Source: Hymenobacter latericoloratus
GTDB lineage: Bacteria; Bacteroidota; Bacteroidia; Cytophagales; Hymenobacteraceae
Assembly: GCF_014199535.1 (NCBI RefSeq)
Contig: NZ_JACHNV010000001.1
Coordinates: forward strand, 868,001 to 932,000
Length of the DNA: 64,000 nt
Reading direction: 5' to 3'
Shown here: positions 5,115-60,968 of the stretch, piece by piece
How the letters are laid out: each line of letters begins with the position of its first letter
Position numbering within the stretch: position 1 is the first letter of the stretch
Notes under the pieces: model-generated
What the model saw: only the letters and a program-made list of their open reading frames with translations
What the model was told of the DNA's origin: nothing
The model's database searches: none
Made by a program: the position numbers and the translations under genes

Positions 5115-6242
5115 ATGGAACAACATACGTATCTCGTGGTAATGGCTGGTGGTATTGGCAGCCGTTTTTGGCCTTTCAGCCGCACCCATCACCCCAAGCA
5201 GTTTCATGATGTGTTGGGGCTGGGGCGCTCCATGCTTCAGCTCACGGTAGATAGGTTCCGAGGCATTTGTCCGGCTGAAAACGTGTTTGTGGTTACCAAC
5301 CGCGACTATACGGAGCTGGTGCACCAGCACCTGCCGGAGCTACCCTTCGACCAGATTCTGGGCGAGCCCATCGGCCGCAACACCGCGCCCTGCATTGCCT
5401 ACGCCAGCTACCGCATTGCCCAGCGCGACCCCGAGGCCGTGATTGTGGTAACCCCCGCCGACCACGCCGTGATGCACGAGGAAAATTTCCGGGAGGCTAT
5501 CCGGACGGCCGTGGACGGCGCCCGCACCCACAACGTGCTGATTACGCTGGGTATTCAGCCCTCGCGCCCCGATACCGGCTACGGCTACATTCAGTTTATT
5601 GATGAGGTAGTGCAGCCAGAGCACGTGCAAACTGCCCCCGGCCACGAGGATGGCGTTTTCCCACAGGCCCTTCGGAAAGTGAAAACCTTCACCGAAAAGC
5701 CAAATCTGGAACTGGCCAAGATGTTTGTAGCCAGCGGCGACTTTCTGTGGAACTCGGGCTTGTTTGTGTGGCGGGCCGATGCCATCATTCACGCCTTCCA
5801 TCAGTACCTCAGTGATATTGCCGAGGTGTTTGACGAAGGCCGGGACGAGCTGGGAACCTCCCAGGAAGAAGACTTCATTTCCCGCGCCTACACCCGCTGC
5901 CGCAACATCAGCATTGACTACGGGGTGATGGAAAAGGCCGATAATGTGTATGTGCTACCCGCCGACTTCGGCTGGAGCGACCTGGGCACCTGGGACTCCC
6001 TGCACCGCATGGGCCAGCACGATGCCGACGAAAACGTAGTGGACGGCAATGCCCTGCTCTATGATACCAGTGAATGCGTTATCAAAACGCCGCCCGAGCG
6101 CCTCGTGGTAGTGCAAGGCCTGGAAGGCTACATCGTAGCGGAGTACGACAACGTGCTGCTCATCTGCAAGCGCACCGAAGAGCAGCGCGTAAAAGAGTTC
6201 GTCGCCGATGTGAAGTCGAAGAAGGGCGTAGGGTATAATTAA
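5115..6242 (+). CDS. manC: Mannose-1-phosphate guanylyltransferase
   Basis: A 375-residue cytoplasmic enzyme that makes GDP-mannose from mannose 1-phosphate and GTP. The nucleotidyltransferase signature VMAGGIGSRFWPFSR is at residues 9-23, followed by KQFHDVLG and the GEPIGRNTAPCIAYAS block near 76-91. A left-handed beta-helix-type end closes the protein. There is no fused phosphomannose isomerase domain, so this is the short form. The stop codon at 6240-6242 overlaps the first bases of the large inverted repeat at 6241-6344, and rlmB converges on the same repeat. GDP-mannose feeds mannosylated or fucosylated surface glycans. Confidence 0.96.
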   Translation: MEQHTYLVVMAGGIGSRFWPFSRTHHPKQFHDVLGLGRSMLQLTVDRFRGICPAENVFVVTNRDYTELVHQHLPELPFDQILGEPIGRNTAPCIAYASYRIAQRDPEAVIVVTPADHAVMHEENFREAIRTAVDGARTHNVLITLGIQPSRPDTGYGYIQFIDEVVQPEHVQTAPGHEDGVFPQALRKVKTFTEKPNLELAKMFVASGDFLWNSGLFVWRADAIIHAFHQYLSDIAEVFDEGRDELGTSQEEDFISRAYTRCRNISIDYGVMEKADNVYVLPADFGWSDLGTWDSLHRMGQHDADENVVDGNALLYDTSECVIKTPPERLVVVQGLEGYIVAEYDNVLLICKRTEEQRVKEFVADVKSKKGVGYN

Positions 6243-6344
6243 TTAACAATTAAGAATTAACAATGAAGAGTTGGGCAGTTCAACGCTCCGTAATGAGGAG
6301 GTTGAACTGCCCAACTCTTCATTGTTAATTCTTAATTGTTAATT
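6241..6344. repeat. Perfect 44-bp-arm inverted repeat (element A)
   Basis: The left arm 6241-6284 and right arm 6301-6344 are exact reverse complements over 44 bases. A short extra stem (6286-6289 with 6297-6300) closes the 16-nt centre. The outer half of each arm iterates TTAATTG/TTAATTC-like heptamers; the inner half is unique. It contains the end of the manC stop and encodes the last three residues and stop of rlmB (SINN, then TAA at 6332-6334). Transcripts from either side could fold into a very stable hairpin, so it may act as a two-way terminator, but it lacks a plain T tract. Confidence 0.95.
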
Positions 6345-7300
6345 GACTTCAGGCGCTGCCGCAGTACCTCGTAGAGCATGATGCCGCTGGCTACGGATAC
6401 GTTGAGGGAACTGATCTGACCAGCCATCGGGATGCGTAGCTTGTGGTCGGCGAGGCGCAGGTACTCGGGGCTGATGCCGTCCTCTTCGCTTCCCATCAGA
6501 ATAGCTAAAGGCCCGGTCAGGTCCACGGTTTCGGCTTCCAGGCTGGCGTCCGACTTCTCCGTACAAGCCACTACCTGCACCCCCGATTCGCGTAGGAAAG
6601 TGAGCGTGTCTTTCAGGTTGGGCTCCCGGCATACCGGAATCAGGTTCAGGGCGCCGGCCGAGGTTTTCAGAGCGTCGCCGTTTACCTGGGCGGCGCCGCG
6701 GCTGGGCACCACAATGGCATGCACGCCCATACACTCGGCGTTGCGGGCAATAGAGCCGAAGTTGCGCACGTCGGTGATGCGGTCCAGCACCAGCAGAAGC
6801 GGAGTTTTGCCTTCCTCGTACAAGCTGGCCAGAATGCTGTCCAGGGGCATGTAGTCAATCGGCGAAACATAGGCTACCGCGCCCTGGTGGTTTTTGCGGG
6901 TGATGCCGTCGAGCTTTTCAACGGGCACCATCGACACCGGAATATTGGCCGTTTTGGCCAGGGCCGTAATATCCTGGGTCATGGAGTTCTTGGTGCCGCG
7001 CAGCAAGAAAATCTTGTCTAGGGTACGCCCGGCGTTCAGGGCTTCCAGAATCGGGCGCAACCCAAAAATCATGTCGATGCTGCGGTCCTGGGCCGGGCGG
7101 TGGGGGTAGCGCGGCTTGTCCGATCGGCTGCCTTCGTAACGGCCACCTTCAGCGCGGCTGCCCTCAAATCGTCCTTCCTCGGCACGACCTTCGGCGTCGC
7201 GCGAAGCTGGCCGCCGATTGGGTACCGGGCGGTTTTCAGAATCAAAAAATTGGCGGCGCTCAGTTAGCGGCCGGGGCGGGCGGTTCGTCCTTTTCTCCAT
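6332..7300 (-). CDS. rlmB: SPOUT 23S rRNA 2'-O-methyltransferase, RlmB/TrmH type
   Basis: A 322-residue member of the SpoU family that methylates a ribose 2'-O on RNA, most likely G2251 of 23S rRNA. The first 70 residues are Arg/Glu/Gly-rich and probably disordered, with repeated EGSR units. The RNA-binding substrate domain begins near MIFGLRPILEALNAG (77-91). The SPOUT catalytic part has the motifs VLDRITDVRNFGSIARNAE, GSEEDGIS and IPMAGQISSLNVSVASGIMLYE. The final residues SINN and the stop are encoded by element A. Its start overlaps the end of the next gene upstream (GWxTD protein) by 37 nt, which suggests co-transcription. RlmB versus another TrmH-like target is not certain. Confidence 0.92.
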   Translation of the reverse strand: MEKRTNRPPRPLTERRQFFDSENRPVPNRRPASRDAEGRAEEGRFEGSRAEGGRYEGSRSDKPRYPHRPAQDRSIDMIFGLRPILEALNAGRTLDKIFLLRGTKNSMTQDITALAKTANIPVSMVPVEKLDGITRKNHQGAVAYVSPIDYMPLDSILASLYEEGKTPLLLVLDRITDVRNFGSIARNAECMGVHAIVVPSRGAAQVNGDALKTSAGALNLIPVCREPNLKDTLTFLRESGVQVVACTEKSDASLEAETVDLTGPLAILMGSEEDGISPEYLRLADHKLRIPMAGQISSLNVSVASGIMLYEVLRQRLKSINN

Positions 7301-13377: not shown

Positions 13378-13387
13378 ACAATACCCC

Positions 13388-17325: not shown

Positions 17326-18088
17326 CCTCGCGCTGCCCGCCGGCCGCCGCGTGTACTTTGCTTCTGATTTTCACTTGGGTGCCCCCGATGCCGCCCGCTC
17401 CCTGGAGCGGGAGCGGCGCATCGTGCGCTGGCTCGACGCGGCCGCCCAGGATGCCGCCGCCATTTACCTGCTGGGGGATATTTTCGACTTCTGGTTTGAG
17501 TACCGGCATGCTATTCCGCGCGGCTTTATCCGGCTGCAGGGCAAGCTGGCCGAACTGACCGATGCCGGCTTGCCCGTGACGTTTTTTACCGGCAACCATG
17601 ATATGTGGATGTTCGACTACTTCACCAAAGAGCTGAACATTCCGGTGCTGCGGCACCCGGTCAGTCAGCGCATTGGGGGGCACCAGTTTCACATCGGGCA
17701 CGGCGACGGCCTGGGCCCCGGCGACCATACCTATAAGGTGTTGAAGCGCGTGTTTGCCTCGCCGGTGGCGCAGTGGCTGTTTGCCCGCCTGCACCCCAAC
17801 CTGGGCATTGGCATTGCCAACCGCTGGAGCCGGCATAGTCGCCTGCAGAATGGCGCCGCCGATGAGCAGTATTTCGGCGACGATGAGTGGCTGCTGACCT
17901 ACTGCCGCGAGGTGCAGCAGCAGTTTCCGCATGAGTACTACGTGTTCGGCCACCGCCACCTACCCCTCGATGTGGAAGTAGAGGTAGGGAGCCGCTACAT
18001 AAACCTGGGCGAATGGGTCAATTATTGCTCCTACGGCGTGTATGATGGCAACCAACTGGAGCTTCGGCACTTTGAGCAGGAGAAATAA
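17300..18088 (+). CDS. lpxH: UDP-2,3-diacylglucosamine diphosphatase
   Basis: A 262-residue calcineurin-like phosphoesterase that hydrolyses UDP-2,3-diacylglucosamine to lipid X in lipid A synthesis, at the inner face of the inner membrane. Metal-binding motifs occur in order: DFHLG (DxH), GDIFDFW (GDxxD), GNHDMW, HIGHGDG and GHRHLP. ATG 17300 (MTRPPQLP) is chosen because it places the first motif about 25 residues in. It overlaps the LUD gene by 26 nt. The stop at 18086-18088 is followed directly by repeat element E. Confidence 0.92.
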   Translation: MTRPPQLPDLALPAGRRVYFASDFHLGAPDAARSLERERRIVRWLDAAAQDAAAIYLLGDIFDFWFEYRHAIPRGFIRLQGKLAELTDAGLPVTFFTGNHDMWMFDYFTKELNIPVLRHPVSQRIGGHQFHIGHGDGLGPGDHTYKVLKRVFASPVAQWLFARLHPNLGIGIANRWSRHSRLQNGAADEQYFGDDEWLLTYCREVQQQFPHEYYVFGHRHLPLDVEVEVGSRYINLGEWVNYCSYGVYDGNQLELRHFEQEK

Positions 18089-18175
18089 AGCTGAACAGCT
18101 GGTGCTGAGAACCAGAAAGCAAGTAGCAACTGGCTTTTTAACTCTCAGCTCGGTCTGCTTAGCTCTTAGCTCAGC
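18089..18175. repeat. Two-armed iterated repeat covering a signal peptide (element E)
   Basis: Arms at about 18089-18120 and 18140-18175 contain iterations of AGCT, CTGAGA and TTAGCTC-like units in opposite orientation, an imperfect inverted repeat. It starts at the lpxH stop and contains the likely GTG start and signal-peptide codons of the next gene. Less regular than element A, so the call is weaker. Confidence 0.5.
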
Positions 18176-19010
18176 ATACGCCCAGACCACGGCGCCGGCC
18201 GCCGGCTCGGTAGCGCCCGCCGGGCAGGCCGCGCCCGTGGTTACAATACCCGCCGATACCAGGGAAGCGGCTGCCGCTTGGGTACCGGTGCGCACCATTG
18301 CCCTGCCCCAACCGGGCCCGGCCTCCCTGGACCGACGCGGCAACCTCTACGTAACCGACGCCCAAAACAACCTGCGCCAGTACGGCCCCGATGGGCAACC
18401 CCTTAACACCTTTTCGCCCCCGCTGCCTGGGCACACGGCCCAGGTAGAAGCCTGGAACACGGCCAAAGTGCTGGTGTTTTATGATGACCGCCAACAGGTA
18501 GTGCTGCTGGACCGGTTTCTGACGCCCATAGCCGAAGTACGCTGGCAGGATTACCTCGACGGGCAGATTCGCGCGGCTACCCTGGCCCCCGACGACCGGT
18601 ACTGGCTGCTCAACGAATCAGACCTGACGCTCCGGCAGTTCGATACCAGCCAGAAGCGCTTCTCCATCACTACCCCCCTCGACCTGCTCATCGGCCGCAG
18701 CCGGCCCGACTTCCGGTTTCTGCGCGAATACCAGAACAACCTCTATCTCGTGGACCGCAACAGCGGCATTTACGTGTTCGATAACCTGGGCAACTACCGC
18801 AAAAAGCTGCCGCTACCCGGCCTGAGCTACGTAGGTTTCCGCGGCGACGAGCTGTATTATCCGGGACCTGACGGGCTGCATTTCTGGCACCTTTACAATC
18901 AAACGGACCGCCTGCTCCCCTTGCCCACGGCCGGAGCCCAGCAGGTGCTGGTGGGTGAGCAGTACGCCTATGTGCTGACGAGTGCGGAAGTACAAGTGTA
19001 TAAAATATAG
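18102..19010 (+). CDS. Secreted beta-propeller-like protein
   Basis: A protein of about 302 residues. GTG 18102 gives a good signal peptide: VLRTRKQVATGFLTL, a hydrophobic stretch, then SSAYAQ before TTAPAAG. An ATG at 18042 is in frame but lies inside lpxH and would give a poor signal. The mature part has spaced blade-like units (RGNLYVTDAQNNLRQYGPDG, LVDRNSGIYVFDNLGNYRKK) like NHL or six-bladed propellers. No enzyme motif was seen. It follows lpxH immediately, so it may be co-transcribed. The signal-peptide codons fall inside repeat element E. Confidence 0.75.
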   Translation: MLRTRKQVATGFLTLSSVCLALSSAYAQTTAPAAGSVAPAGQAAPVVTIPADTREAAAAWVPVRTIALPQPGPASLDRRGNLYVTDAQNNLRQYGPDGQPLNTFSPPLPGHTAQVEAWNTAKVLVFYDDRQQVVLLDRFLTPIAEVRWQDYLDGQIRAATLAPDDRYWLLNESDLTLRQFDTSQKRFSITTPLDLLIGRSRPDFRFLREYQNNLYLVDRNSGIYVFDNLGNYRKKLPLPGLSYVGFRGDELYYPGPDGLHFWHLYNQTDRLLPLPTAGAQQVLVGEQYAYVLTSAEVQVYKI

Positions 19011-23158: not shown

Positions 23159-23561
23159 CTTCGGTGCCACGCGCCGTGAGTTGGGGCGCCGGCTGCTCTC
23201 TGCTTATGCAAGCAGATAAGGGCCGTTGTCACGGGCGCTTTCGAGCTGCGGAGCAGCCCCGGTCAGACACGTCTGATCTACCTGGTTGACTTTCTGTTGA
23301 CGCTTGGGGGTAGGAAACCAGCCCGTAGCGTACAGGCCGCCGTGTTGGCCCTGTCCCGCTAGCCTGCGCGGTGGTAGTGGGGTAGCAACCTCGGTTTGAG
23401 TTTGCCAGATGCCGCTTTGCACTCCGCATAGCCGCCGGGAGCTAAGCAGAAATAGTTGCTGTTCTGCCCCCTTTTATTCAGCTGGTTCATGCCGCTAAAA
23501 CAGAAAACGGCCCCGGCTCATGTGAGCCGGGGCCGTTTTTTAACCAGTGTTAAGCGGTTGC
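23159..23561. other. Intergenic region, 403 nt, convergent genes
   Basis: Separates the stops of the S8 peptidase and the M57 lipoprotein. It contains the terminator at 23504-23539 and two CTACCCC/GGGGTAG heptamers. No supported gene or RNA was seen. Confidence 0.6.
23504..23539 (-). terminator. Terminator for M57 lipoprotein (possibly both directions)
   Basis: A 16-bp stem beginning AAAACGGCCCCGGCTC with a 4-nt loop and T runs on either reading. It ends 23 nt before the lipoprotein stop. Confidence 0.9.
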
Positions 23562-26866: not shown

Positions 26867-26888
26867 CCGGCCCGCGAAACAGGCAAAG

Positions 26889-26922
26889 AAAAACCCCGAT
26901 CGGCCAGCCGATCGGGGTTTTT
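26889..26922. terminator. Shared terminator, gldH and cold-shock gene
   Basis: A 15-bp perfect stem AAAAACCCCGATCGG (26889-26903) with its complement 26908-26922, loop CCAG, with A and T runs. It lies between two convergent genes and can serve both. Confidence 0.92.
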
Positions 26923-26942
26923 CTTTGCCGTGCAACCTGAAG

Positions 26943-32267: not shown

Positions 32268-32282
32268 GCTACCCCCCCAACG

Positions 32283-32320
32283 GCAAAAGCCCTCGTAACC
32301 CGGGTTACGAGGGCTTTTGC
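32283..32320. terminator. Shared palindromic terminator
   Basis: A 38-nt perfect palindrome (19 bp each side, centre at 32301/32302) with AAAAG and CTTTT arms, between convergent DinB and barrel genes. Confidence 0.9.
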
Positions 32321-32345
32321 TGTTGGGGGGGGGTAGGGCAACGGC

Positions 32346-33892: not shown

Positions 33893-34223
33893 GATAGATA
33901 AAGGTGAATAAAATGGCTTACTGGGCCACGGCACGAAGGTAGAAGGCTTCATCCAACCTTTATCTACCCATTTATAGGTATATTTTATTGTTGAAATAGA
34001 TTTACGGGAGATAATAAGCCAGACCCCTGAAAACCTTCTTGCACGTCAGCAATAGCGCGGAGGTAGCCAGGGCCCGGCCCGCGTGGTACTATAAGCTCTG
34101 TGTCATTTGTTTGGCTCGGCCACGAGGCGTAATTGCGCTTGTTTTTTGCGGGGAGCTTATGGAATCGGGGCTTGGCAGGCATCTACTATTTACCAACTTG
34201 CCCGCCTGTTACGTTCTGCCCCT
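33893..34223. other. Divergent promoter region, 331 nt
   Basis: Between the barrel gene (minus) and the alpha-2-macroglobulin gene (plus). The part 33950-34020 is A+T-rich. It holds a TACCTTCG box at 33934-33941 (minus) and TAGATTTA at 33997-34004 (plus), the latter a weak candidate for the macroglobulin. Confidence 0.5.
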
Positions 34224-37200
34224 ATGCGCCCTGTCCTGTTAAGCTTACTGCTGCTCCTGCTCTTGTTTTCCGCCGGCTCCTCCCAAACGAATCCTACCCC
34301 TCCCGGTGCCGGCAACCCCGCCGCCTGGAAGAAAATTGACCAGCTGCTGGCCAAAGACCAAACGGCTTCGGCCGCCAAGCTGCTGGAGCCCCTCTACCAG
34401 CAGGCCCGCCAGCGCCAGGATGCGCCCGAGTATCTGCGGGCCCTGCTCTACAAGCTGCGCCTGCTGGAAGCCAAAGAGGAAGAATCCGATGTGCAGGCCA
34501 TTGCCCTGGTAGCGGCCGACCTGAAAACCGCCCGGTTTCCGGCCCGGCCCATGTTGCACAGCCTGCTGGCCCAGCTCTACGCCAACTACTACCAGCAGCA
34601 CCGCTACCAGCTCTACGACCGCACCACCCCGGCCGCTGCTGACCCCGCCGACGCCAGCCAGGCCGACATCCGCACCTGGGATGCTGCCCGCCTCGGCAGC
34701 GCCGTTATCCGCCACTACCGCGCCTCGTTGCAAGAAGAGCCCCAGCGCCTGCAGCAGCTGAAGCTGGCCGCCCTGGGCTACGCCGTAACCGGCGGCGACG
34801 CCGAAAGTCGCGCTTTGGTGCCCACGCTCTACGACGTGTTGGCCCGCCGCGCCATTGAGGGCCTCGGCAACGATGAATACTATATCACCAAGCCCGCCGA
34901 GCAGTTTGAGCTGAAAGAAGCCGCGCTGTTTGGGCCGGCCGCGGCCTTTGCCAGCCTGCAGCTAACCGCGCCGCCGTCCGATTCGCTTAATGGCCAGCTG
35001 CAGGTGTTGCGGGTGCTGCAGCAGCTTACCGCGTTCCGGCTGCAGGATGCCGCCAACCCCGCCGCCCTGGCCGACGTGGACCTGGCCCGCCTGCGCTTCG
35101 TGCACCAACACGCCACGCTGCCCAACAAAGACGAGCTTTACCGTGCCGCGCTAAGCCAGGCCACCACTACCTACGCGGCGCTACCCATCGTCACGCGGTT
35201 TATGTTTGAGCAGGCTTCCCTGGAGGAGGAAACCAATGCCGCGAAAGCCCGCGCCCTGGCCCTGGAAGCTGAAAAGCGTTTCCCGAAGTCGCAAGGGGCA
35301 GCCCAGGCCCGGGCGCTGCGGCAGAGCATTGAGCAGGTTGAAGTAACCTTCACGACCGAGGAAACGGTGCTGCCCGGCCAGCCGTGGCTGCTGAAGCTGC
35401 AGGTGCGCAACGTGACCCGGCTCTACGCCAAAGCCTACCGTATCAGCAACGCCTACAACGTCCGGCTTTCCGAGCCCGTCTCCGCCGATGAGCCATACAG
35501 CTTCCAGAAGACCTTCTCCCGCGCCCTGGCCGGCAAGCCGGCCGCGGCCTGGACGCTGAACGTGCCCGCTCCGGCCGACTATAAAGCCCATACCGTGCAG
35601 CACGCTGGCCCGGCTTTGCCGCTGGGCCACTACCTCATTGTGGTGAGCACCGCCGCTGAAAACCCGACCAAGGAGCGGGCCGGCGTCATCACGGCGCGTT
35701 CTTTCCTGAGCGTGAGCGAGCTGAGCCAGGTGCGGCGCAGCTCGCCCGAGGGCACCAGCCTGCTGGTACTGCACCGCCAAAGCGGGCAGCCGCTGGCCGG
35801 GGTGCGGGTGCGGCCCCTGTTTCAGTACTACGACCAGAAAGCCCGCCAGTACAAGCAGCGCCGCGGCGCGGTACTGACCACCAATACCGAGGGCCAGACG
35901 CACATTGCGCAGGGTACGCAAACCGGTGAAAACGAGCAGCTCAGCAACCTGTTCCTGACCTTGGGCCGCGACTCGCTGCTGGTTGAAAACGTGGGCTACT
36001 ACTACCCCCGCCGCCCCCGCAACCCCGAAGCCGTGCAGCCCCAGCGCCGCGCGTTCCTCTTCACCGACCGCGCCATTTACCGTCCCGGCCAGACGCTCTA
36101 CTTCAAAGGTATCCTGACCGAAACCCGCGCCGGCAAATCACAGCTTCTGACCCGGCAAGCCGTGTCGGTGCACCTCATGGACGTGAACGGCCAGACCGTG
36201 CAGACGCTACCTTTCACCACGTCGGAATTCGGCTCTTTCCACGGCTCTGTGGTGCTGCCCACCGGCCTGCTCAACGGCGAAATGAGCCTGCAAACCGATG
36301 ATGGCAGCATCAGCTTCGCGGTGGAGGACTACAAGCGCCCTACCTTCCAAGTGACGTTTGCGCCCGTAGCCGGTACGCCCGGGCTGGGGCAGGAAGTAAC
36401 CGTGCGCGGCAAAGCCAGCGCCTACGCCGGCCAGCCCATTGACGGGGCCACGGTGCAGTACCGCGTGGTGCGCCGCACGTTCTGGCCCCTGTTCGGGATG
36501 GGCTACCGCAGCCTCTACGGCCACCAGGGCCGGCCGGAAGTGGAAATCCTCAACGGTACCGCCCAGACCGATTCCGCCGGCGGCTTCGTGGTGAAGTTCA
36601 TAGCGAAAGGGGAGGACCTGAGCGCGGCCAAGCGCGGCCCCTGGAACCCCGGCTACGTATTCGAGGTAACCGCCGACGTGACCGACGCGGCCGGCGAAAC
36701 CCGCACCGGCCAGCAGTCCGTCAGCCTCGGCACCAATGCCCTGAGCTTGCGCCTGGAAGTGCCTGAGCTGCTGAACCGGGAGCAAGTACCCGCCTTACGG
36801 CTGCTCAGCACCAACGCCACCGGCGAAGCCCTGCCCGCCCAGGGCCAGTTGCGCCTCTACCGCCTCACGCCGCCCGCCCGTGCCCTGCGCCCGCGCGCCT
36901 GGGAACGGCCCGAGCTGGAAGCCCTAAGCCTGGAGGAGTTCAAGCGCCAGTTCCCGCTCGATGCTTACGCCCGCGAAGACAACGACAGCACCTGGGCCCG
37001 CACGCTGGTCGTCACCCAGGACTTCAACACCGAAAAAAGCTCGCTGCTGCCCGACATGGCGCAGGCCCTGAGCAGCCAGCAGCCCGGCCGCTACGTGCTG
37101 GAAGCCACCGCCACCGCGCCGGCCTCCACGCCCCCCGCCAAAACGGAGCAGGTGTTTACTCTCTATTCGACGGCGGCCAAGACCCTGCCCATCCCTACCC

Positions 37201-40200
37201 CCGATTGGTTCGTGAACCTCCAGGACAGCGTAGCGCCGGGCCAGGCCGCGCGCTTTTTGGTGGGCAGCTCCGAAGCCGGGGCGCGCTTGCTGCTGGAAGT
37301 AGAAGCCAAAGGCGAAACTCTGCGCCGCGAGTGGCTGACCCTGGCCGCCGGCGAGCAGCGCGTCATCGAAGTGCCGACCACTGCCGCGCTGGAAGGCGCG
37401 CCGCTGTACGCCCACCTCACCCAGGTGCGCGACAATCGCCTTTATACCCACAGTGCCACCGTGCAGGTCGCCACGCCGCCCGCGCCGCTGGTGCTCAGCA
37501 TTGCTACCTTCCGCGACAAGCTGCAGCCCGGCCAGAAGGAAACCTGGCGCGTCACGATTCATAACACCGCCGGTCAGCCCGCCAACGCCGAGCTGCTGGC
37601 TACTCTCTACGATAAGTCCCTGGATGTTTTCCGGGCGCACTCCTTCACGGAGCTGGAATTTCCGAAGCCGTATTACCCTGCCCTGTTGGCCTGGAACGGC
37701 CGGTTCGGCACGCAAGAGTCGGATGAGCTATTTGACGGTGACAATGATGCAATAGAGGTGGCCGAGTTAGTGTATCCTCACTTAAATATGTGGGGCTACA
37801 TGGGCGAGGACGAAGATAGATTTGGCGCAGGCGGTTCGGACAAAGCCCAGGGGTTCATCGCCAGCCCAGTTATAATGCAGGACGCGGAAGTCCGGGTGCG
37901 CGGCAATGGGGTGATGGCCGAGGCCGCTGCCCCCCAAATGGCTATGCGAAAGATGCCCCCACCACCGCCCCCACCTAGTGCGCCACCCAGACCTGGTGAA
38001 ACAGATGAGCTTCCGGATATGGAGGAGCTAGTAGATAAATCTAGCTCCGACCTCTCCAATGTCCAGGTCCGCAAAGATTTCCGCGAAACGGCTTTCTGGC
38101 TGCCCGAGCTGCGTACTAATGCCCAGGGCGAAACCGTGTTGGAATTCCAGATGCCCGAAGCCGTGACCCGCTGGCAGCTGCTGGCCCTGGCCCACGACCA
38201 GCAGCTGCATTCCGGCCTGTTGCAGCGGGAGCTGGTGACGCAAAAGCAGCTGCAAGTGACGCCTAACGCCCCGCGCTTCTTCCGCGAAGGCGACCAGCTC
38301 ACGCTCAGCGCCAAGCTCAGCAACCTCTCCGAGGCACCCCTGAGCGGCAGCGCCCAGCTGTTCCTGCTCGATGCCCGCACCCAGCAGCCCCTGGAAAGCA
38401 AGCTGCTGAAAAGCCCTGCCCAGCTAAAATTCAGCCTAAAGGCCAACCAAAGCAGCGCCGTAAGCTGGAACCTACAGATTCCGGAAACCGCCGAAGGCCA
38501 AGTACCCCTCGAAGCCATTACCTACCGCGTGGTGGCATCGGGTAGTCAGTTGTCAGTTGTCGGTTCTCAGTTGTCAGGCAAAGACAAGAAGGAGCAGCGC
38601 AAGCAGCGCCGCCAGAACAAACCGGCAACCGGCAACTCACAGCTGGCAACTGTACAAGATGGCGAGGAAAACACCCTGCCCGTGTTGCCCAACCGCTTGC
38701 TCATCACCGAGAGCCTGCCCCTACCCCTGGTGGGGCCCGCAACCCGGGAGTTCGAGCTGAAAAAGCTCACCAGCACTACCTCGCCCACGCGCCGCAACTA
38801 CTCGCTCACGCTGGAAATGACCCAAAACCCCGCGTGGTACGCCGTGCAGGCGCTGCCCTACCTCATGGAGTACCCCTACGAGTGCTCCGAGCAGGTGTTC
38901 AGCCGCCTCTACGCCAACCTGCTGGCTGCCAAAATTCTGCAGAGCAACCCGCAGCTGCGCACCACGCTGGCCGAATGGAAGCGCGCCGCCGACGCCGGCG
39001 ACAAAGCGGCCCTCACCAGCAAGCTGGAGCAGAACCAGGAGCTGAAAAACCTGCTGCTCCAGGAAACGCCCTGGGTGCGCGATGCGCAGTCGGACACGGA
39101 GCGTATGCGCCGCCTCTCGGAGCTGTTCGATGAGCCGCGCCTGCAGGCCGAAACCAGCCGCGCCCTGGCCAAGCTGCTGCAGATGCAGCAGTCCAATGGG
39201 GCCTTCCCGTGGTTTGAGCGCATGCCCGACGACCGGTACATCACCCAACTCATTGTGGCTGGTTTTGGCAAGCTGCAGAAGCTGGGCGCGCTGAATGTGC
39301 AGCAAACCCCGCAGGCCCAGCAAATCGTCAACAATGCCCTTATCTACCTCGACACTCAGCTGCAGCGCGACTACACCGAGCTACGCAAACAGCCTCAGGT
39401 GGACCTCCAGCAGCAGCACGTAGCCGATATCCAGGTGCAGGCCCTGTACGCTCGGAGCTTCTGGCCAACGGAGGCCGTGTCGAAAGCCGCGCAACCAGCT
39501 CTGGCCTACTACCGGCAACAGGCCGCTACCTACTGGAAAGCCCAAACCCGCTACCTCCAGGCCCAGACGGCCCTGGCCCTGCACCGCCAGAAAGCCCAGC
39601 CCGCCGCCGTGAAAACCATCCTGACGGCCCTCGCAGAAAACGCCCTGCACTCACCGGAGCTGGGTATGTACTGGAAGGAAGTGCGCGGCGGCTACTACTG
39701 GCGCGAAGCTCCCACCGAAACTCAGGCAACCCTCATCGAGGCCTTCGACGAAGTGCTCAGCGACCAGAAATCGGTGGATGAAATGAAGCTCTGGCTGCTC
39801 CAGCAGAAGCACACCCAGAACTGGGAAAGCACCCGTGCCACCGCCGATGCCTGCTACGCCCTGCTGCTGCGCGGCACCAGCTGGCTGCAGCCCACCCAAC
39901 CCCTGCACGTGACGGTAGGAGGGAAGCCCGCCCCCGCTGCGGCCCAGCAGGCCGGCACGGGCTACTACAAAACCACCTGGCCCGCCGCCGAAATTCAGCC
40001 AGAGCTGGGCAAAGTAGTAGTGCAGAAAACCGACGCGGGCGTGGCCTGGGGCGCGCTGTACTGGCAGTATTTCGAGCAGCTGGATAAGATTGCCCCCGCC
40101 GCCACCGGCCTGCAGCTGGAGCGCCAGCTCTACCGCGAGCAGCGCACCGCCGCCGGCCTTACCCTACAGCCCCTCACGGCCGCTACCCCCCTGCGGGTGG

Positions 40201-40535
40201 GTGATGTGCTGGTAGTGCGCCTCGTGCTCCGCTCCGACCGGAACCTGGAATACGTGCACCTGAAGGATCAGCGCGCCGCCGGCCTGGAGCTGATCAGGCA
40301 AACTTCCGGCTACCGCTACCAAAGCGGCCTGGGCTACTACGAAAGCCCCCGCGACGCGGCCACCAACTTCTTCATCAGCTACTTCCCCAAAGGCACCCAC
40401 ACCTTCGAGTACCGGCTGCGGGCCGCGCAGGCCGGTAATTTCTCCGGTGGCCTCTCGCAGCTGCAGTGCCTCTACGCCCCGGAGTTCACCACGCACTCGG
40501 CCGGCACGCGGCTGCAGATCGGAGCTCAACCGTAA
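34224..40535 (+). CDS. Alpha-2-macroglobulin family protein
   Basis: A protein of about 2103 residues from ATG 34224 (MRPVLLSLLLLLLLFSAGSS), with a signal peptide. A helical N-terminal part of about 350 residues precedes the macroglobulin (MG) domains: FTDRAIYRPGQTLYFKG marks MG2. A Pro- and Asp-rich linker (about 1190-1275, with seven Pro in a row) leads to RKDFRETAFWLPELRTN, the start of the A2M domain. The thioester motif is ECSEQ with Cys1554 and Gln1557 kept. The family traps proteases by thioester-linked capture, in bacteria usually in the periplasm. No pbpC is next to it. A repeat-derived segment (about residues 1441-1478) lies in frame before the thioester domain. Confidence 0.93.
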   Translation: MRPVLLSLLLLLLLFSAGSSQTNPTPPGAGNPAAWKKIDQLLAKDQTASAAKLLEPLYQQARQRQDAPEYLRALLYKLRLLEAKEEESDVQAIALVAADLKTARFPARPMLHSLLAQLYANYYQQHRYQLYDRTTPAAADPADASQADIRTWDAARLGSAVIRHYRASLQEEPQRLQQLKLAALGYAVTGGDAESRALVPTLYDVLARRAIEGLGNDEYYITKPAEQFELKEAALFGPAAAFASLQLTAPPSDSLNGQLQVLRVLQQLTAFRLQDAANPAALADVDLARLRFVHQHATLPNKDELYRAALSQATTTYAALPIVTRFMFEQASLEEETNAAKARALALEAEKRFPKSQGAAQARALRQSIEQVEVTFTTEETVLPGQPWLLKLQVRNVTRLYAKAYRISNAYNVRLSEPVSADEPYSFQKTFSRALAGKPAAAWTLNVPAPADYKAHTVQHAGPALPLGHYLIVVSTAAENPTKERAGVITARSFLSVSELSQVRRSSPEGTSLLVLHRQSGQPLAGVRVRPLFQYYDQKARQYKQRRGAVLTTNTEGQTHIAQGTQTGENEQLSNLFLTLGRDSLLVENVGYYYPRRPRNPEAVQPQRRAFLFTDRAIYRPGQTLYFKGILTETRAGKSQLLTRQAVSVHLMDVNGQTVQTLPFTTSEFGSFHGSVVLPTGLLNGEMSLQTDDGSISFAVEDYKRPTFQVTFAPVAGTPGLGQEVTVRGKASAYAGQPIDGATVQYRVVRRTFWPLFGMGYRSLYGHQGRPEVEILNGTAQTDSAGGFVVKFIAKGEDLSAAKRGPWNPGYVFEVTADVTDAAGETRTGQQSVSLGTNALSLRLEVPELLNREQVPALRLLSTNATGEALPAQGQLRLYRLTPPARALRPRAWERPELEALSLEEFKRQFPLDAYAREDNDSTWARTLVVTQDFNTEKSSLLPDMAQALSSQQPGRYVLEATATAPASTPPAKTEQVFTLYSTAAKTLPIPTPDWFVNLQDSVAPGQAARFLVGSSEAGARLLLEVEAKGETLRREWLTLAAGEQRVIEVPTTAALEGAPLYAHLTQVRDNRLYTHSATVQVATPPAPLVLSIATFRDKLQPGQKETWRVTIHNTAGQPANAELLATLYDKSLDVFRAHSFTELEFPKPYYPALLAWNGRFGTQESDELFDGDNDAIEVAELVYPHLNMWGYMGEDEDRFGAGGSDKAQGFIASPVIMQDAEVRVRGNGVMAEAAAPQMAMRKMPPPPPPPSAPPRPGETDELPDMEELVDKSSSDLSNVQVRKDFRETAFWLPELRTNAQGETVLEFQMPEAVTRWQLLALAHDQQLHSGLLQRELVTQKQLQVTPNAPRFFREGDQLTLSAKLSNLSEAPLSGSAQLFLLDARTQQPLESKLLKSPAQLKFSLKANQSSAVSWNLQIPETAEGQVPLEAITYRVVASGSQLSVVGSQLSGKDKKEQRKQRRQNKPATGNSQLATVQDGEENTLPVLPNRLLITESLPLPLVGPATREFELKKLTSTTSPTRRNYSLTLEMTQNPAWYAVQALPYLMEYPYECSEQVFSRLYANLLAAKILQSNPQLRTTLAEWKRAADAGDKAALTSKLEQNQELKNLLLQETPWVRDAQSDTERMRRLSELFDEPRLQAETSRALAKLLQMQQSNGAFPWFERMPDDRYITQLIVAGFGKLQKLGALNVQQTPQAQQIVNNALIYLDTQLQRDYTELRKQPQVDLQQQHVADIQVQALYARSFWPTEAVSKAAQPALAYYRQQAATYWKAQTRYLQAQTALALHRQKAQPAAVKTILTALAENALHSPELGMYWKEVRGGYYWREAPTETQATLIEAFDEVLSDQKSVDEMKLWLLQQKHTQNWESTRATADACYALLLRGTSWLQPTQPLHVTVGGKPAPAAAQQAGTGYYKTTWPAAEIQPELGKVVVQKTDAGVAWGALYWQYFEQLDKIAPAATGLQLERQLYREQRTAAGLTLQPLTAATPLRVGDVLVVRLVLRSDRNLEYVHLKDQRAAGLELIRQTSGYRYQSGLGYYESPRDAATNFFISYFPKGTHTFEYRLRAAQAGNFSGGLSQLQCLYAPEFTTHSAGTRLQIGAQP
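38544..38655. repeat. Two-armed iterated repeat inside a CDS (element D)
   Basis: The left arm 38544-38577 iterates TCAGTTG-like heptamers. The right arm 38622-38655 iterates the opposite strand (GGCAACC, GGCAACT). The core between is A- and G-rich and encodes a Lys/Arg/Gln-rich stretch. It stays in frame in the macroglobulin and encodes SQLSVVGSQLSGKDKKEQRK and about 18 residues more, ending with NSQLATVQ. Confidence 0.8.
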
Positions 40536-42343: not shown

Positions 42344-42670
42344 TTACGCGTCCTGGGGCATGAGGCGCACCACCAGCCCATCTACGCGCGGGGTCAGCCG
42401 GATCTGGCAGGAAAGGCGGCTGCCCTGGGTCATGACGGGTAGGCTCTCCAGCATGGCCAGCTCATCGTCGCCGGGCTCCGGCAGCTCCGGGCCAGCCAGC
42501 ACCTCTACGTGGCAGGTGCCGCACAGCGCCATGCCCCCGCAAGTGGCCTGAATGTCGTACCCATCGGCCTTCATAATTTCCATCAGGCTCAGGCCCATAT
42601 CGGTAGGAGCCACAATTTCGCGCCGCTGACCCGGCGCTTCCTCTACATATACGCGTACTTCGTCGGTCAT
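42344..42670 (-). CDS. 2Fe-2S ferredoxin, adrenodoxin type
   Basis: A 108-residue ferredoxin. Cys44, Cys50 and Cys53 (ATCGGMALCGTCHVEV) and Cys88 (RLSCQI) give the C-x5-C-x2-C-x34-C spacing of adrenodoxin-type and Isc-type ferredoxins rather than plant type. It carries electrons between a reductase and a partner enzyme. The gene upstream on the same strand is an NADP-ferredoxin reductase, so the pair forms a redox chain. Repeat element B separates them. The final acceptor is not encoded nearby. Confidence 0.94.
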   Translation of the reverse strand: MTDEVRVYVEEAPGQRREIVAPTDMGLSLMEIMKADGYDIQATCGGMALCGTCHVEVLAGPELPEPGDDELAMLESLPVMTQGSRLSCQIRLTPRVDGLVVRLMPQDA

Positions 42671-42679: not shown

Positions 42680-42771
42680 GTGGTGAAATAGAGAGATGGT
42701 GAAATAGTGAGTTGGCTGTTTTAGCAGCGCGGTACTACCGGGCGTAAAACTCACCATCTCCCTATTTCACC
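42680..42771. repeat. Two-armed iterated repeat between reductase and ferredoxin (element B)
   Basis: The left arm 42680-42713 and right arm 42748-42771 are inverted copies of a GGTGAAATAG-based unit. Compared with the right arm the left arm holds one extra 8-nt unit (AAATAGTG). The core is unique. The right arm is almost identical to the right arm of element C at 60941-60968, so B and C are copies of one dispersed repeat. Confidence 0.85.
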
Positions 42772-42778: not shown

Positions 42779-43792
42779 TTACAGCGTGGGTACCCCGTTT
42801 ACGGTCGTGTACTTGAGCACGTACTTCTTGTCGGGGTTGATGTACTTGAAGGCACCCTGGCACATGAGCGCGGCCTCGTGGAAGCCGCACAGAATCAGCT
42901 TCAGCTTACCGGGGTAAGTGTTGATGTCGCCGATGGCGTAGATGCCCGGCTCCGAGGTAGAGTAGTCCACGGTATTCACCTTCACGGCGTCGTCTTCCAG
43001 TTCCAGGCCCCACTCGCCAATGGGCCCCAGCTTGGGCGTCAGGCCGAACAGGGGAATAAAGCTGTCCACGTTTACCGTTTCGGTTTCGCCGTTATTGGCC
43101 GTAATAGTCACGGCTTCAAGCTGGCCGTTGCCGTGCACATGCGTTACGTTGGAGCTCAGCACCAGCTTCACTTTGCCCGCCTCGTGCAGGTTCTTCACTT
43201 TCTCGGCCGAGTCGGCGGCGCCGCGGAAGGTGGTGCCGCGGTGGACCAGAGTTACCTCTTTCGCCACGTCGGCCAGGAAGATGGTCCAGTCCAGAGCCGA
43301 GTCGCCGCCGCCGGCAATAACCAGGCGCTGGTTGCGGAAGGTTTCCGGGTCGCGCACCATGTAGTACACGCCTTTGCCGCTTTCATAATCCGTGAGCCCG
43401 TCGATGGCCGGTTTGCGCGGCTCGAAGGAGCCCAGGCCGCCGGCAATGGCAATGGCTTTGCACAGGATTTCAGTGCCGTCAATGGTCGTCACGCGGAAGG
43501 AACCATCTGCCAGCTTTTCGTAGCCCTCTACCCGCTCCCCCAGCGTGAAGGTGGGATGGAAGGGCTCAATCTGCCGCATCAGGTTCTGAATCAGGTCACC
43601 GGCCAGTACTTCGGGGTAGCCCGGAATGTCATAGATCGGCTTCTTCGGGTAGATTTCGGAGAGCTGACCGCCTACCTGAGGCAGCGCGTCCACTACGTGG
43701 CAGCGCAGCTTCAGCAAGCCGGCTTCAAATACAGCAAACAGGCCTACCGGGCCGGCCCCAATAATGCAGATATCAGTGGAAATAGAATTCAT
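42779..43792 (-). CDS. Ferredoxin--NADP reductase, thioredoxin-reductase-like type
   Basis: A 337-residue flavoprotein from ATG 43792 (MNSISTDICIIGAGPVG). The FAD dinucleotide-binding motif GAGPVG is at 12-17, the NADPH motif is AGGGDSALDW, and GIYAIGDINTYPGKL is the FAD-binding end. There is no CxxC redox pair, so it is the YumC-type ferredoxin reductase rather than thioredoxin reductase. It passes electrons from NADPH to ferredoxin, likely the one encoded just downstream. Promoter box TATCTTTG at 43889-43896. An earlier ATG at 43906 lies upstream of the promoter box and is rejected. Confidence 0.94.
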   Translation of the reverse strand: MNSISTDICIIGAGPVGLFAVFEAGLLKLRCHVVDALPQVGGQLSEIYPKKPIYDIPGYPEVLAGDLIQNLMRQIEPFHPTFTLGERVEGYEKLADGSFRVTTIDGTEILCKAIAIAGGLGSFEPRKPAIDGLTDYESGKGVYYMVRDPETFRNQRLVIAGGGDSALDWTIFLADVAKEVTLVHRGTTFRGAADSAEKVKNLHEAGKVKLVLSSNVTHVHGNGQLEAVTITANNGETETVNVDSFIPLFGLTPKLGPIGEWGLELEDDAVKVNTVDYSTSEPGIYAIGDINTYPGKLKLILCGFHEAALMCQGAFKYINPDKKYVLKYTTVNGVPTL

Positions 43793-43888
43793 CAGCGAAA
43801 AGTGAAAACAAAACAACGAGCGGGCGAAGCGCCGGGGTACTAACCACCAAACCCGCCAAAACGTTGGGGGATGCCTCACTTGCGGGCG

Positions 43889-43896
43889 CAAAGATA
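43889..43896 (-). promoter_or_regulatory. -7 box for reductase-ferredoxin unit
   Basis: TATCTTTG on the minus strand, an exact match, about 97 nt upstream of ATG 43792. Confidence 0.6.
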
Positions 43897-43940
43897 GGCA
43901 GGCCACGGCAGCTAGCCCACCCCCGGCCTGTTCTACTTCG

Positions 43941-57848: not shown

Positions 57849-57864
57849 TCTTCACGCTCGCAAC

Positions 57865-57907
57865 CACTAAAAAAAAGCCGCTTCCCTCGGGGGCGGCTTT
57901 TTTAGTG
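57865..57907 (+). terminator. Terminator after OmpA paralogue 1
   Basis: CACTAAAAAAAAGCCGC (57865-57881) pairs with GCGGCTTTTTTAGTG (57893-57907), loop about 11 nt. Confidence 0.88.
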
Positions 57908-58161: not shown

Positions 58162-58169
58162 TACCTTTG
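58162..58169 (+). promoter_or_regulatory. -7 box for OmpA paralogue 2
   Basis: TACCTTTG, exact match, 51 nt before ATG 58221. No clear -33 TTTG at the usual distance. Confidence 0.6.
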
Positions 58170-58220
58170 CCGACACATTTTTCCGCACAGTCAAACCAAT
58201 ACACGCTAACTCCCCACGTC

Positions 58221-58925
58221 ATGAAAAATCTTCGTTCCTTGTTTGCCTTGCTGCTGGCCGTGCTGCTGCTGGGCACCAGCGCTGCTGAAGCACAAACCAC
58301 TACCACGAAAAAGCCCTGGAGCAAAACGGCTAAAGGCGCCGTTATTGGTGGGTTGGGCGGCGCGGCCGGCGGGGCTGTGCTGGGCCGCGTAATCGGCGGT
58401 AAGTCGGGCACGGCCAAAGGCGCCATCATTGGGGCCGCCGTAGGCGGTGCCGGCGGCGCCCTGATTGGTCGCCGGATGGACAAGCAGGCCGCTGAGCTAC
58501 AGAAGGAAATGGCCGGCGCTAAAGTGGAGCGCGTAGGCGAGGGTATCAAAATCACCTTCGATTCGGGCCTGCTGTTCGCTAAAAACTCGTCGGCTCTGAC
58601 TTCGTCGGCGCAGGAGAACATCAAAGACTTGGCAAAAACCCTCGTTAAGTACGGCGACACCAACGTTATTGTGGAGGGCCACACCGACAACACCGGCTCC
58701 GATGCCATCAACGACCCGCTTTCGCAGCGCCGGGCTCAGGCCGTAGCCAACTACGCCCAGCAGCAAGGCGTGGATGCTTCGCGCTTCACGGTATCGGGCT
58801 ACGGCTCTAAGCAGCCCATTGCCGACAACTCGACGGAAGCCGGCCGCCAGGCCAACCGCCGCGTAGAAGTAGCCATCTTCGCCAATGAGAAGCTGAAGAA
58901 GGCTGCCGAAAAAGGCACCATCTAA
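58221..58925 (+). CDS. Glycine-zipper OmpA protein, paralogue 2
   Basis: A 234-residue protein from ATG 58221 (MKNLRSLFALLLAVLLLGTS), signal ending AAEAQ; unlike paralogue 1 it has no lipobox Cys, so it is probably released or held only by its zipper. The glycine zipper (GAVLGRVIGGKSGTAKGAII) and the link KVERVGEGIKITFDSGLLF are nearly the same as in paralogue 1. The OmpA domain has VIVEGHTDNTGSDAIN and QANRRVEVAIFANEKLKKAA. It has its own promoter and terminator, so the two copies can be expressed apart. Confidence 0.9.
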   Translation: MKNLRSLFALLLAVLLLGTSAAEAQTTTTKKPWSKTAKGAVIGGLGGAAGGAVLGRVIGGKSGTAKGAIIGAAVGGAGGALIGRRMDKQAAELQKEMAGAKVERVGEGIKITFDSGLLFAKNSSALTSSAQENIKDLAKTLVKYGDTNVIVEGHTDNTGSDAINDPLSQRRAQAVANYAQQQGVDASRFTVSGYGSKQPIADNSTEAGRQANRRVEVAIFANEKLKKAAEKGTI

Positions 58926-58950
58926 GCTCTGGCAGCTTGCAAGCACCTGG

Positions 58951-58986
58951 CCCGGTGGCCCCTAGTGTTGGGGCCACCGGGTTTTT
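58951..58986 (+). terminator. Terminator after OmpA paralogue 2
   Basis: A 12-bp stem CCCGGTGGCCCC (58951-58962) with its complement 58970-58981, then six T. Confidence 0.9.
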
Positions 58987-59058
58987 TGTTGGGCCAGCCC
59001 GCGCCGCGGGCCTAGCCAAGCGTGTAACCTGCCGCCCGGCCCGGCGGTACAACCGGCT

Positions 59059-59820
59059 ATGCCTACCACCTACACCGCACCCGCCGCCGAGAAAACCACC
59101 GAAAATCAACGGATTCTGCAGGAGTTCTACCCCCCGCTAACCCAGGAAACCACCCGCCGCTCACCCATGCGGGAGCTGATTTCTACGGTTCTTTCGCACC
59201 GGACCACCCACGCCGATGAGGAGCTGGCCTACGACCGGATGCTGGAAGCCTTCGGCGACTGGGAGGGGGTAGTAAACGCGCCCACTCAGGAGTTGGCCCA
59301 CGCCATCCGGACCACCCGCTGGCCCGATACCCAGGCCCCCCGGATTCAGGAAATTCTGCGCCGCATCAAGGCCGAGCGGGGCGAGTACAACCTGGATTTT
59401 CTGGAAGAATGGCCCACGGAGAAGGGCATGCAGTGGTTGAATGACATGCCCGGCATTGGGCTGAAAACGGCTTCTTTGGTGCTCCTGTTTAACTTCCGCA
59501 AGCCCGTACTGCCCGTGGATACGCACGTGCACCGGGTGGCCCAGCGCGTGGGCATGATCGGGCCAAAAGCCTCCGTGGAAAAAGCTCACCAGGTGCTGCT
59601 GGATCAGCTGCCGAAGGATTCCTTATTACTGCTCAACTTCCATAAGCACAACTACTGGCACGGCCAGAAAATCTGTTTTTTCACCAAGCCCAACTGCGCC
59701 CGCTGCCCGCTGAAAGGCTTCTGCAACTACTACCTGGAGCACTACGGCCCTGCTACGCCCGAGGCGCTGGCCGCCACCCCCGCCTGCTGGGATACGGCCT
59801 GGGGCGCGCTGCCGCACTAG
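59059..59820 (+). CDS. Endonuclease III-like DNA glycosylase
   Basis: A 253-residue HhH-GPD glycosylase. The hairpin DMPGIGLKTASLVLLF holds catalytic Lys136, PVDTHVHRVA holds Asp154, and the 4Fe-4S cluster uses Cys206, Cys213, Cys216 and Cys222 (C-x6-C-x2-C-x5-C), so the enzyme looks intact. It removes damaged bases and nicks the strand. The N-terminal 30 residues and the LSHRTTHADE block differ from E. coli Nth (LSxQxT), so a divergent substrate range is likely. A second Nth elsewhere in the genome is probable. Confidence 0.9.
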   Translation: MPTTYTAPAAEKTTENQRILQEFYPPLTQETTRRSPMRELISTVLSHRTTHADEELAYDRMLEAFGDWEGVVNAPTQELAHAIRTTRWPDTQAPRIQEILRRIKAERGEYNLDFLEEWPTEKGMQWLNDMPGIGLKTASLVLLFNFRKPVLPVDTHVHRVAQRVGMIGPKASVEKAHQVLLDQLPKDSLLLLNFHKHNYWHGQKICFFTKPNCARCPLKGFCNYYLEHYGPATPEALAATPACWDTAWGALPH

Positions 59821-59892
59821 CGGGGGTAGGCTAGCGCCTATCCTTTCGGTGGTTTCAGTGGTTGTAGGGCGGCGGCTTGTGTTTCCGCGCTG

Positions 59893-59900
59893 TACCTTTA
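59893..59900 (+). promoter_or_regulatory. -7 box abutting radical SAM gene
   Basis: TACCTTTA (seven of eight) ends 7 nt before ATG 59908; a leaderless or near-leaderless transcript is expected, as with the LUD gene. Confidence 0.55.
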
Positions 59901-59907
59901 CTGCCCT

Positions 59908-60891
59908 ATGCGCCTCGTTCGTCATCCGGTTTTGTGCAACTACTACGTCACCTACCGGTGCAATGCGCGGTGTTCGTTCTGCGACATCTGGGAGAAACCC
60001 TCGCCCTATATTCAGCTGGCGGACGTGGAGCGCAACCTGCGGGACCTGAAGCGTCTGGGCGTGTCGGTGGTGGACTTCACCGGGGGCGAGCCCCTGCTGC
60101 ACCGCCAGATTCATGAGTTTGTGGGATTGGCGCACGACATGGGCTTCATCACTACGCTCACTACCAACTGCCTGCTCTATCCCAAATACGCCGAGAAGCT
60201 GCGCGGCAAGGTCGATATGCTGCACTTCTCCCTCGATGCCTCCGAGAAGGAAGTGCACGACAAGGGGAGGGGGGTAGCCTGCTTTGATTTCGTGCTGGAA
60301 AGCATTCGGGTAGCCCGGGAGTTGGGCGAGCGTCCCGACGTGCTGTTCACCGTGTTCCGCGAAAACCTGGCCGACCTGGAAAAGGTGTACCAGCATATAA
60401 CCCAGCCCAATAAGCTGGTGCTGATCCTGAACCCCGCCTTCGAGTACAACGCCGTGAACACCGGCGAGCAGCTCACGCCTCAGGAGCTGAACTACCTTTC
60501 GGCTTTCGGCAAGCTGCCCGGCGTGTACCTCAACGAGGCCTTCATTCAGCTGCGGCGCGACGGTGGCAACCACGTAGCCGCGCCCGTGTGCCGGGCTGCC
60601 AGCACTACCCTGGTTATTTCGCCCAGCAATGAGCTGGTGCTGCCTTGCTACCACCTGGGCGAGCAGAAATTCCCGATTGACGGCCAGCTGTACGACCTCT
60701 ACAACTCGGAGCCGGTACAGCAGCTGGCCGCGCTGGAGGGCCGCCTACCCCAGTGCGAAGGCTGCACCATTAACTGCTACATGCAGCCCAGCTTCGCGGT
60801 AGAAACCAGTAAGTATTTCTGGCAGGCCCTGCCCAGCACCCTCAAGTACAACTGGGAAAAAGGCACCTGGAAACGCATGGTGAAGTGGTGA
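59908..60891 (+). CDS. Radical SAM protein
   Basis: A 327-residue enzyme. The CxxxCxxC motif (Cys18, Cys22, Cys25 in YRCNARCSFCDIW) binds the 4Fe-4S cluster that cleaves S-adenosylmethionine; VDFTGGEPLLHRQ holds the GGE SAM-binding motif. A C-terminal region with CRAASTTLVISPSNELVLPC and LPQCEGCTINCYMQP suggests a SPASM-like auxiliary cluster. The family resembles those that modify peptides or lipids, but the substrate is not known. Its stop lies in repeat element C, and a gamma carbonic anhydrase follows 85 nt on in the same direction. Confidence 0.87.
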   Translation: MRLVRHPVLCNYYVTYRCNARCSFCDIWEKPSPYIQLADVERNLRDLKRLGVSVVDFTGGEPLLHRQIHEFVGLAHDMGFITTLTTNCLLYPKYAEKLRGKVDMLHFSLDASEKEVHDKGRGVACFDFVLESIRVARELGERPDVLFTVFRENLADLEKVYQHITQPNKLVLILNPAFEYNAVNTGEQLTPQELNYLSAFGKLPGVYLNEAFIQLRRDGGNHVAAPVCRAASTTLVISPSNELVLPCYHLGEQKFPIDGQLYDLYNSEPVQQLAALEGRLPQCEGCTINCYMQPSFAVETSKYFWQALPSTLKYNWEKGTWKRMVKW

Positions 60892-60968
60892 GTTTGCTGT
60901 TCGGAAGGCGCCACCAGCGTAGTTTGCGCCACCAGAACGTCAAACTCACCATCTCACTATTTCACCAC
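60887..60968. repeat. Two-armed iterated repeat after radical SAM gene (element C)
   Basis: GGTGAGTTTG (60887-60896) is the short left arm; its complement 60941-60950 starts the right arm, which continues to about 60968 with CACCATCTCACTATTTCACC. The right arm nearly matches that of element B. The core has a direct repeat of GCGCCACCAG. The element contains the radical SAM stop codon (60889-60891). Confidence 0.8.

Follow-up and report, generated by a model that had tools for sequence, protein, structure and literature searches.

How can a hairpin keep its place and its two-armed shape between two genes while the sequence of both arms is exchanged? This question is raised by a stretch of 64,000 nucleotides from the 5.04 Mb genome of Hymenobacter latericoloratus (the window; all coordinates are positions in this whole stretch). 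Here, the initial annotation described five elements, A to E, each with two oppositely oriented arms of tandem imperfect short units around a core. Analysis of the gap that holds element B showed that position and shape persist in the genus while the family of the repeated unit gets replaced. Furthermore, differences in unit sequence affect both arms at once, as does, in one clear case, a difference in unit number. Our tentative reading, to which we give a little less than an even chance, is that these hairpins, built of arrays of 7-8-base units and located mostly in gene gaps, are maintained by DNA copying between their own arms while their sequence is rewritten.

The five elements are listed below. 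Folding z-scores (z) were computed against 200 dinucleotide shuffles per element; 6 of 200 random 105-base pieces of the window scored below -3.

6241..6344, no strand: element A, two 44-base arms (6241-6284 and 6301-6344) separated by a 16-base loop; z -19.7
18089..18175, no strand: element E, a weak two-armed stretch across a gene junction; z -1.9
38544..38655, plus strand: element D, TCAGTTG-type arms and a Lys/Arg-rich coding core; z -5.1
42680..42771, no strand: element B, arms of GGTGAAAT-type 8-mers; z -6.4
60887..60968, no strand: element C, GGTGAAAT-type arms with a shared inner GTTTG..CAAAC stem; z -5.1

All five are present where they had been described. Elements A to D are real and lie well beyond what chance would give, and E is weak: besides its low z-score, its 7-base period extends over just 2.1 copies, and it is unconfirmed as a repeat because its unit pattern has no match in the genome at up to three mismatches. 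The tandem periods of the others are 7 bases in A and D, 16 (two 8-mers) in B and 8 in C. The arms of element A showed zero mismatches over 44 bases in a palindrome scan of the window, and their outer part consists of AATTAAC/AATTAAG heptamers. Chance and low complexity were ruled out by the z-scores, by pattern controls for D and B/C (0 matches) and by Markov controls in the palindrome scan (0). The same scan also returned three near-perfect, non-iterated stems that look terminator-like by eye (23504-23539, 26882-26929 and 32272-32331). In Rfam, tRNAs were the sole matches in the window and in the loci of six relatives.

Replacement of unit families at the element B gap

Element B lies between two co-directional open reading frames (ORFs), a ferredoxin-domain ORF at 42344-42670 (-) and a pyridine-nucleotide reductase ORF at 42779-43906 (-). 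The comparison set comprises 61 genomes of the genus; the gap is readable in 60 of them (one ends at a contig edge), and in 51 of the 60 it folds with z below -3. The arm units found there include TCAGTTG, AGTTAAG, AATTAAA, AGCT, CAAGCTTC, GGTGAAAT, GGGTAGGA, GGGTTATG and others. Eight genomes (G024, G019, G038, G042, G012, G022, G049 and G053) contain, in place of iterated arms, a hairpin, GTCATGCTGAGCG, that resembles repetitive extragenic palindromes (REPs). Hairpins similar to this REP-like type are also scattered through aligned genome pairs.

The gap contents were assigned by eye to 12 classes, one of which, "other", unites 10 genomes. On a tree of the flanking genes, these classes require 32 changes, compared with a minimum of 11 and a shuffled mean of 41.7, which indicates some inheritance plus much turnover. 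Among 55 near pairs of genomes, with flanks at least 88% identical (88-96%), 29 have elements whose alignment is not better than that of shuffled sequences (p>0.05), and unrelated elements occur despite 92-95% flank identity, for example in G034/G051, G013/G055 and G046/G044. According to the initial annotation, conservation at the same place in distant relatives would mark the repeats as ordinary local sequence; what is conserved here is position and shape, not sequence.

By analogy with arrays in Geobacter metallireducens, for which such a role has been proposed, the arms could be paired sites at which a nucleoid or regulator protein binds DNA. The cited sections on Geobacter describe the same design: arms on opposite strands, each of 3-5 tandem 7-8-mers, at a variable distance (PMC2700814). 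We consider this role very improbable here: the unit family at one gap switches between close species, which one sequence-specific protein would not permit, and arms are also found in coding DNA.

Coupled change of the two arms

Joint changes of the arms were found in long alignments of two genome pairs, G020/G005 (over 348 kb at 93.9% identity) and G035/G003 (over 214 kb at 92.4%). At one gap of G020/G005, an identical 39-base core is framed by ATGTGAAA-type units, 3+3 in one genome and 7+7 in the other. At a gap of G035/G003, AATTAAT units are replaced by AATTATG in both arms (among the events listed). Paired changes at gap B were counted in 11 non-overlapping genome pairs with alignable elements, covering 460 stem pairs, and compared with 2000 shuffles. 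Double changes that still pair numbered 19, compared with 6.5 in shuffles (maximum 14 of 2000), and transversions among them 10, compared with 2.7 (maximum 8 of 2000); 68 stem pairs were broken, compared with 87 in shuffles. The paired multi-base or unit changes in both arms that template switching would produce are thus present, with one counter-example that is considered below.

The turnover could also reflect plain segment replacement: unrelated short segments between conserved flanks would be exchanged by homology-assisted illegitimate recombination, and many of these segments would simply happen to form hairpins. Such dimorphic loci are, in the cited part of the source, a major class of small within-species variation in bacteria (microdiversity; PMC2884548), and several gaps in our aligned pairs swap segments, some of them hairpin-free (among the events listed). 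We regard this explanation as improbable, since it accounts neither for coupled unit changes around an identical core and paired changes nor for the fact that a hairpin remains in place although its class changes 32 times.

Alternatively, selection may act on RNA hairpins (terminators or operon-internal stems), for which any pairing sequence serves, so that arms drift by compensatory mutation or hairpin replacement. Covariant pairing at gap B and the strong folding of 51/60 spacers there are consistent with this. If RNA function dominated, G.U mismatches should exceed A.C mismatches on the transcribed strand, as they do in a control set of 22 tRNAs (17 to 1; p 1.4e-4). No significant excess was found in the gap-B or own-genome sets: the 40 iterated gap-B elements have 51 G.U and 38 A.C (p 0.20), and 18 co-directional own-genome elements, from 25 tried (3 too weak, 4 of unclear strand), have 25 and 27 (p 0.89). 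The corresponding counts are 7 to 11 in the eight REP-like gap-B elements and 6 to 7 in four other gap-B elements. Because the two kinds of mismatch are similarly frequent, pairing appears to be kept about equally on both strands, which fits DNA copying, and the lack of a significant G.U signature suggests that it is probably maintained at the DNA level. As the principal cause, RNA selection therefore seems rather unlikely to us; it may add to the pattern, above all at element A, a candidate two-way terminator.

Other gaps, genomic copies and mobility

As the initial annotation stated, all five elements touch gene boundaries or lie in frame. Element A is located at the ends of two convergent ORFs and overlaps each by a few bases. 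Of 30 loci, 19 could be read across this gap (one with a poor right anchor) and 11 could not; a strong stem is present in all 19, a further point in favour of RNA hairpins. Iterated arms form part of this stem in H. latericoloratus and at L180, L181, L182 and L192. Element C sits between co-directional ORFs for a radical-SAM protein (59908-60891, +) and a hexapeptide-repeat protein (60977-61492, +). In the 29 of 30 loci read (1 lost), gap C contains iterated arms, hairpins of other kinds or, at L138 and L147, REP-like hairpins that sit inside the loop of GTGA arms. It is near-empty in three species, with 39, 43 and 65 bases (L124, L135, L137), which argues against an RNA hairpin under selection.

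Two of the elements involve coding sequence. Element D lies in frame within ORF 34107-40535, which contains alpha-2-macroglobulin domains. The site was read in 29 of 30 loci (1 lost, 2 more with a poor left anchor, nine further stretches left out), and 28 of the 29 inserts are multiples of three and keep the reading frame. Depending on the species, the arms are TCAGTTG-like, AATTAAG-like or absent, and a swap of arms is also found within the close pair G013/G055. Element E crosses a gene junction, and its right arm, of AGCTAAG-like units, encodes what by eye is a signal-peptide-like start of ORF 18042-19010. Among 30 loci inspected at site E, several relatives bear other iterated arms. The placement of arms within a coding linker (D) and a signal-peptide stretch (E) likewise speaks against RNA hairpins. 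At L460, L461 and L468, as in the window at 18089-18175, iterated arms encode the signal-peptide-like start of a secreted-type protein, with units that differ by species.

A search of the whole genome for the arms had been suggested as a check. With up to 2 mismatches allowed, the 19-base D pattern was matched 27 times; the 21-base B/C pattern, with up to 3 mismatches, was matched 73 times. The controls of both gave 0 matches. Matches overlap inside arrays, and loci are fewer than matches. A locus of H. actinosclerus matches loci of the own genome at 79-87%. In addition to the null result for E, the A pattern (AATTAAG) has 33 matches compared with 38 for its reversed control, which makes this control uninformative. 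Among the matches listed, 58 distinct loci were recognized; based on a crude ORF call, 51 lie between ORFs, in co-directional (32), convergent (13) or divergent (6) gaps, and 7 within ORFs. The prevalence of co-directional and convergent gaps among these loci is what RNA hairpins would lead one to expect.

The elements are not copies of one sequence, as had been noted. Elements of the TCAGTTG type, and likewise those of the AATTAAG type, have arms in common and differ in their cores. The claim of a unique core holds for A and D, not for the B/C type, because own-genome elements of this type share an inner inverted repeat (by eye), sometimes with a large insert in the loop. Loops of GTGA-type arms house REP-like hairpins (L138, L147, gap C) or longer inserts (L058/L078, L069 and L087 in the own genome), as if they were an insertion target. 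The motif AGAAC/GTTCT was found in 17 of 83 cores from the own genome and gap B, compared with 4.9 expected; the GTGA family contributes part of this number.

The elements could alternatively be mobile and palindromic, similar to REPs, to REP doublets forming hairpins (REPINs) or to miniature inverted-repeat transposable elements. A transposase acting in trans would then insert them into gaps that tolerate them, and the iterated arms would be their termini. Consistent with mobility are the inner core common to many own-genome B/C-type loci, the REP-like GTCATGCTGAGCG hairpins at gap B in 8 genomes and the occurrence of filled and nearly empty gaps (at gap C and in aligned pairs). The initial annotation pointed to a REP-associated tyrosine transposase (RAYT), a link that fails in general. 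The RAYT-type transposase domain PF01797 has no match in 18 of the 61 genomes and three low-score matches in the own genome. The TCAGTTG pattern is present in 51 of the 61 genomes, with 0-108 matches each (controls 0-2), and genomes without PF01797 carry up to 26 matches. As a general cause RAYT was therefore rejected, with a residual trend towards lower TCAGTTG counts in these genomes (p 0.061), and a RAYT acting in trans is not required; other enzymes may be involved. TCAGTTG copy number showed no link to the gap-B family (p 0.46). A fixed short palindrome common to copies, as in REPs and REPINs, is absent from the TCAGTTG and AATTAAG types, in each of which the copies resemble one another in the arms alone; copies of the B/C type do have an inner palindrome in common. 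Finally, arms occupy gap B in nearly every genome, with the class changing in place. Mobile elements thus appear an unlikely explanation.

Arms of the D type are also found far outside the genus. The exact two-armed TCAGTTR pattern occurs in at least 114 stretches of the genome collection, and the record titles of those listed name Cyanobacteria, Poribacteria, Planctomycetota, Acidobacteria, Bacteroidota, Chlorobi, Desulfobacterales, Proteobacteria, Calditrichaeota and others. Many of the stretches come from metagenome bins, in which misplaced contigs are possible; isolates include Fischerella, Anabaena, Hymenobacter and Capnocytophaga. In a sample of the own phylum, 2 of 395 genomes contain the exact pattern, and the own genome has 0, which indicates that exact arrays are patchy and degenerate ones the rule. 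As a survey of the phylum, the exact pattern was therefore discarded as too strict. At several Poribacteria loci (L300, L303, L313, L336 and L364), TCAGTTR arms enclose AAGAG..CTCTT, a short inner stem that may be a core specific to this lineage.

Proposed upkeep of the arms and relation to known systems

In the reading that we favour, slippage would lengthen or shorten one arm by entire units, and the other arm would receive the mirrored change through template switching between the arms at replication. Outright replacement of the unit family would occur when a different hairpin enters the gap by copying or recombination, and the gap itself would tolerate, favour or need a hairpin. Close species would then hold unrelated units in one gap, likely because each arm serves as a DNA template for the other and because hairpins are exchanged as wholes.

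Several observations weigh against copying between arms. One ortholog pair in the G020/G005 comparison retains a 23-base core with unequal arms on opposite sides. Broken pairs (68) exceed double changes (19), and the seven iterated pairs account for just 10 of the 19 double changes, with REP-like and other elements supplying the remainder. Loop inversions, an expected sign of template switching, gave 1 inverted and 2 forward matches among 300 pairs, which is too few to weigh. The excess of within-genome over between-genome arm similarity (46/48 pairs) is biased because folding was used to pick the arms. At gap B, G.U mismatches are nominally more numerous than A.C mismatches, so that some RNA selection may be at work, and slippage alone leaves the recurrence of unit families in many phyla unexplained.

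The last point also qualifies the earlier proposal of a process that makes new units rather than plain copies. The arrays are indeed rewritten, as families differ at one gap in close species and arms change together. The units are not new each time: families recur in the genome, in the genus and, for TCAGTTR, in many phyla, and the B/C type has an inner core in common. A broader view, which we consider possible and more doubtful, is that self-templating hairpins form a widespread class of gene-gap elements that inherit the shape of a two-armed array and treat its letters as disposable. Such hairpins would recopy their own arms, gain and lose entire 7-8-base units on both sides at once and hop within a small cross-phylum vocabulary of units, without a dedicated transposase or RNA selection.

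A feature that is conserved as shape and place while its letters are replaced eludes alignment-based annotation, as the absence of an Rfam match here illustrates. Should DNA copying be what keeps the arms paired, then compensatory changes, which usually serve as proof that an RNA is functional, can appear where there is no RNA function, and these gaps would allow this to be watched. The recurrence of TCAGTTR-type arms in Cyanobacteria, Bacteroidota, Poribacteria, Planctomycetota, Acidobacteria and others becomes a testable question.

Cyanobacterial short tandemly repeated repetitive (STRR) heptamers and small dispersed repeats are similar in that they are tandem heptamers scattered between genes. 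In the titles and abstracts of the open-licence literature, we found no report of coupled turnover of such arrays at orthologous gaps; in the same literature, no report of palindromic intergenic repeats in Hymenobacter was found. The following comparisons refer to the cited sections of each source.

Tandem degenerate heptamers, mostly intergenic, are found in the A and D types with their period of 7. The TAACTGA repeats of Cyanobacteria, some Bacteroidetes and Beggiatoaceae resemble the D-type unit (TCAGTTA) and are mostly intergenic, but their description is one of direct repeats close to start codons, with a single indirect repeat in the main genome, and does not present them as arms of hairpins (PMC4679880). 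REPs and REPINs are likewise short palindromic repeats at co-directional or convergent ORFs and sometimes in genes; unlike the elements here, they are fixed palindromes with tags and contain no tandem 7-8-mers (PMC3733652).

Hairpins are reported to arise and to be maintained through template switching (PMC8794818), and a homogenizing effect of this process on inverted-repeat arms, coding DNA included, has been reported as well (PMC8604942). Such quasipalindrome mutation resembles the changes seen here in that a single event makes the arms alike, whereas the cited sections cover base changes and loop inversion and make no mention of unit-wise growth of both arms (PMC8794818, PMC8604942).

The closest parallels in design and in turnover come from two other systems. 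Class 1-3 paired "global regulator binding sites" of G. metallireducens are inverted arrays of 3-5 tandem 7-8-mers (units GTTGCTYN, TCTCCGTS and MTYCTGA), with arms on opposite strands, variable distance and several families per genome (PMC2700814), and this design was also found here. In G. sulfurreducens, the proBA gap holds a different multicopy sequence, akin to the swapping of gap contents in Hymenobacter; unlike here, the Geobacter arrays are read as protein-binding sites, and the cited sections contain no turnover at orthologous gaps, coupling of arms or strand test (PMC2700814). The P6b stem of the Nostoc tRNA-Leu intron shows repeated class-for-class and region-for-region replacement of two heptamer classes, at a single site in a self-splicing intron, whereas many gaps and about a dozen classes are involved here (PMC4476775). 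The two-armed design (Geobacter) and the swapping of heptamer classes (Nostoc) are therefore already known, and the new part is their coupled turnover at fixed gene gaps.

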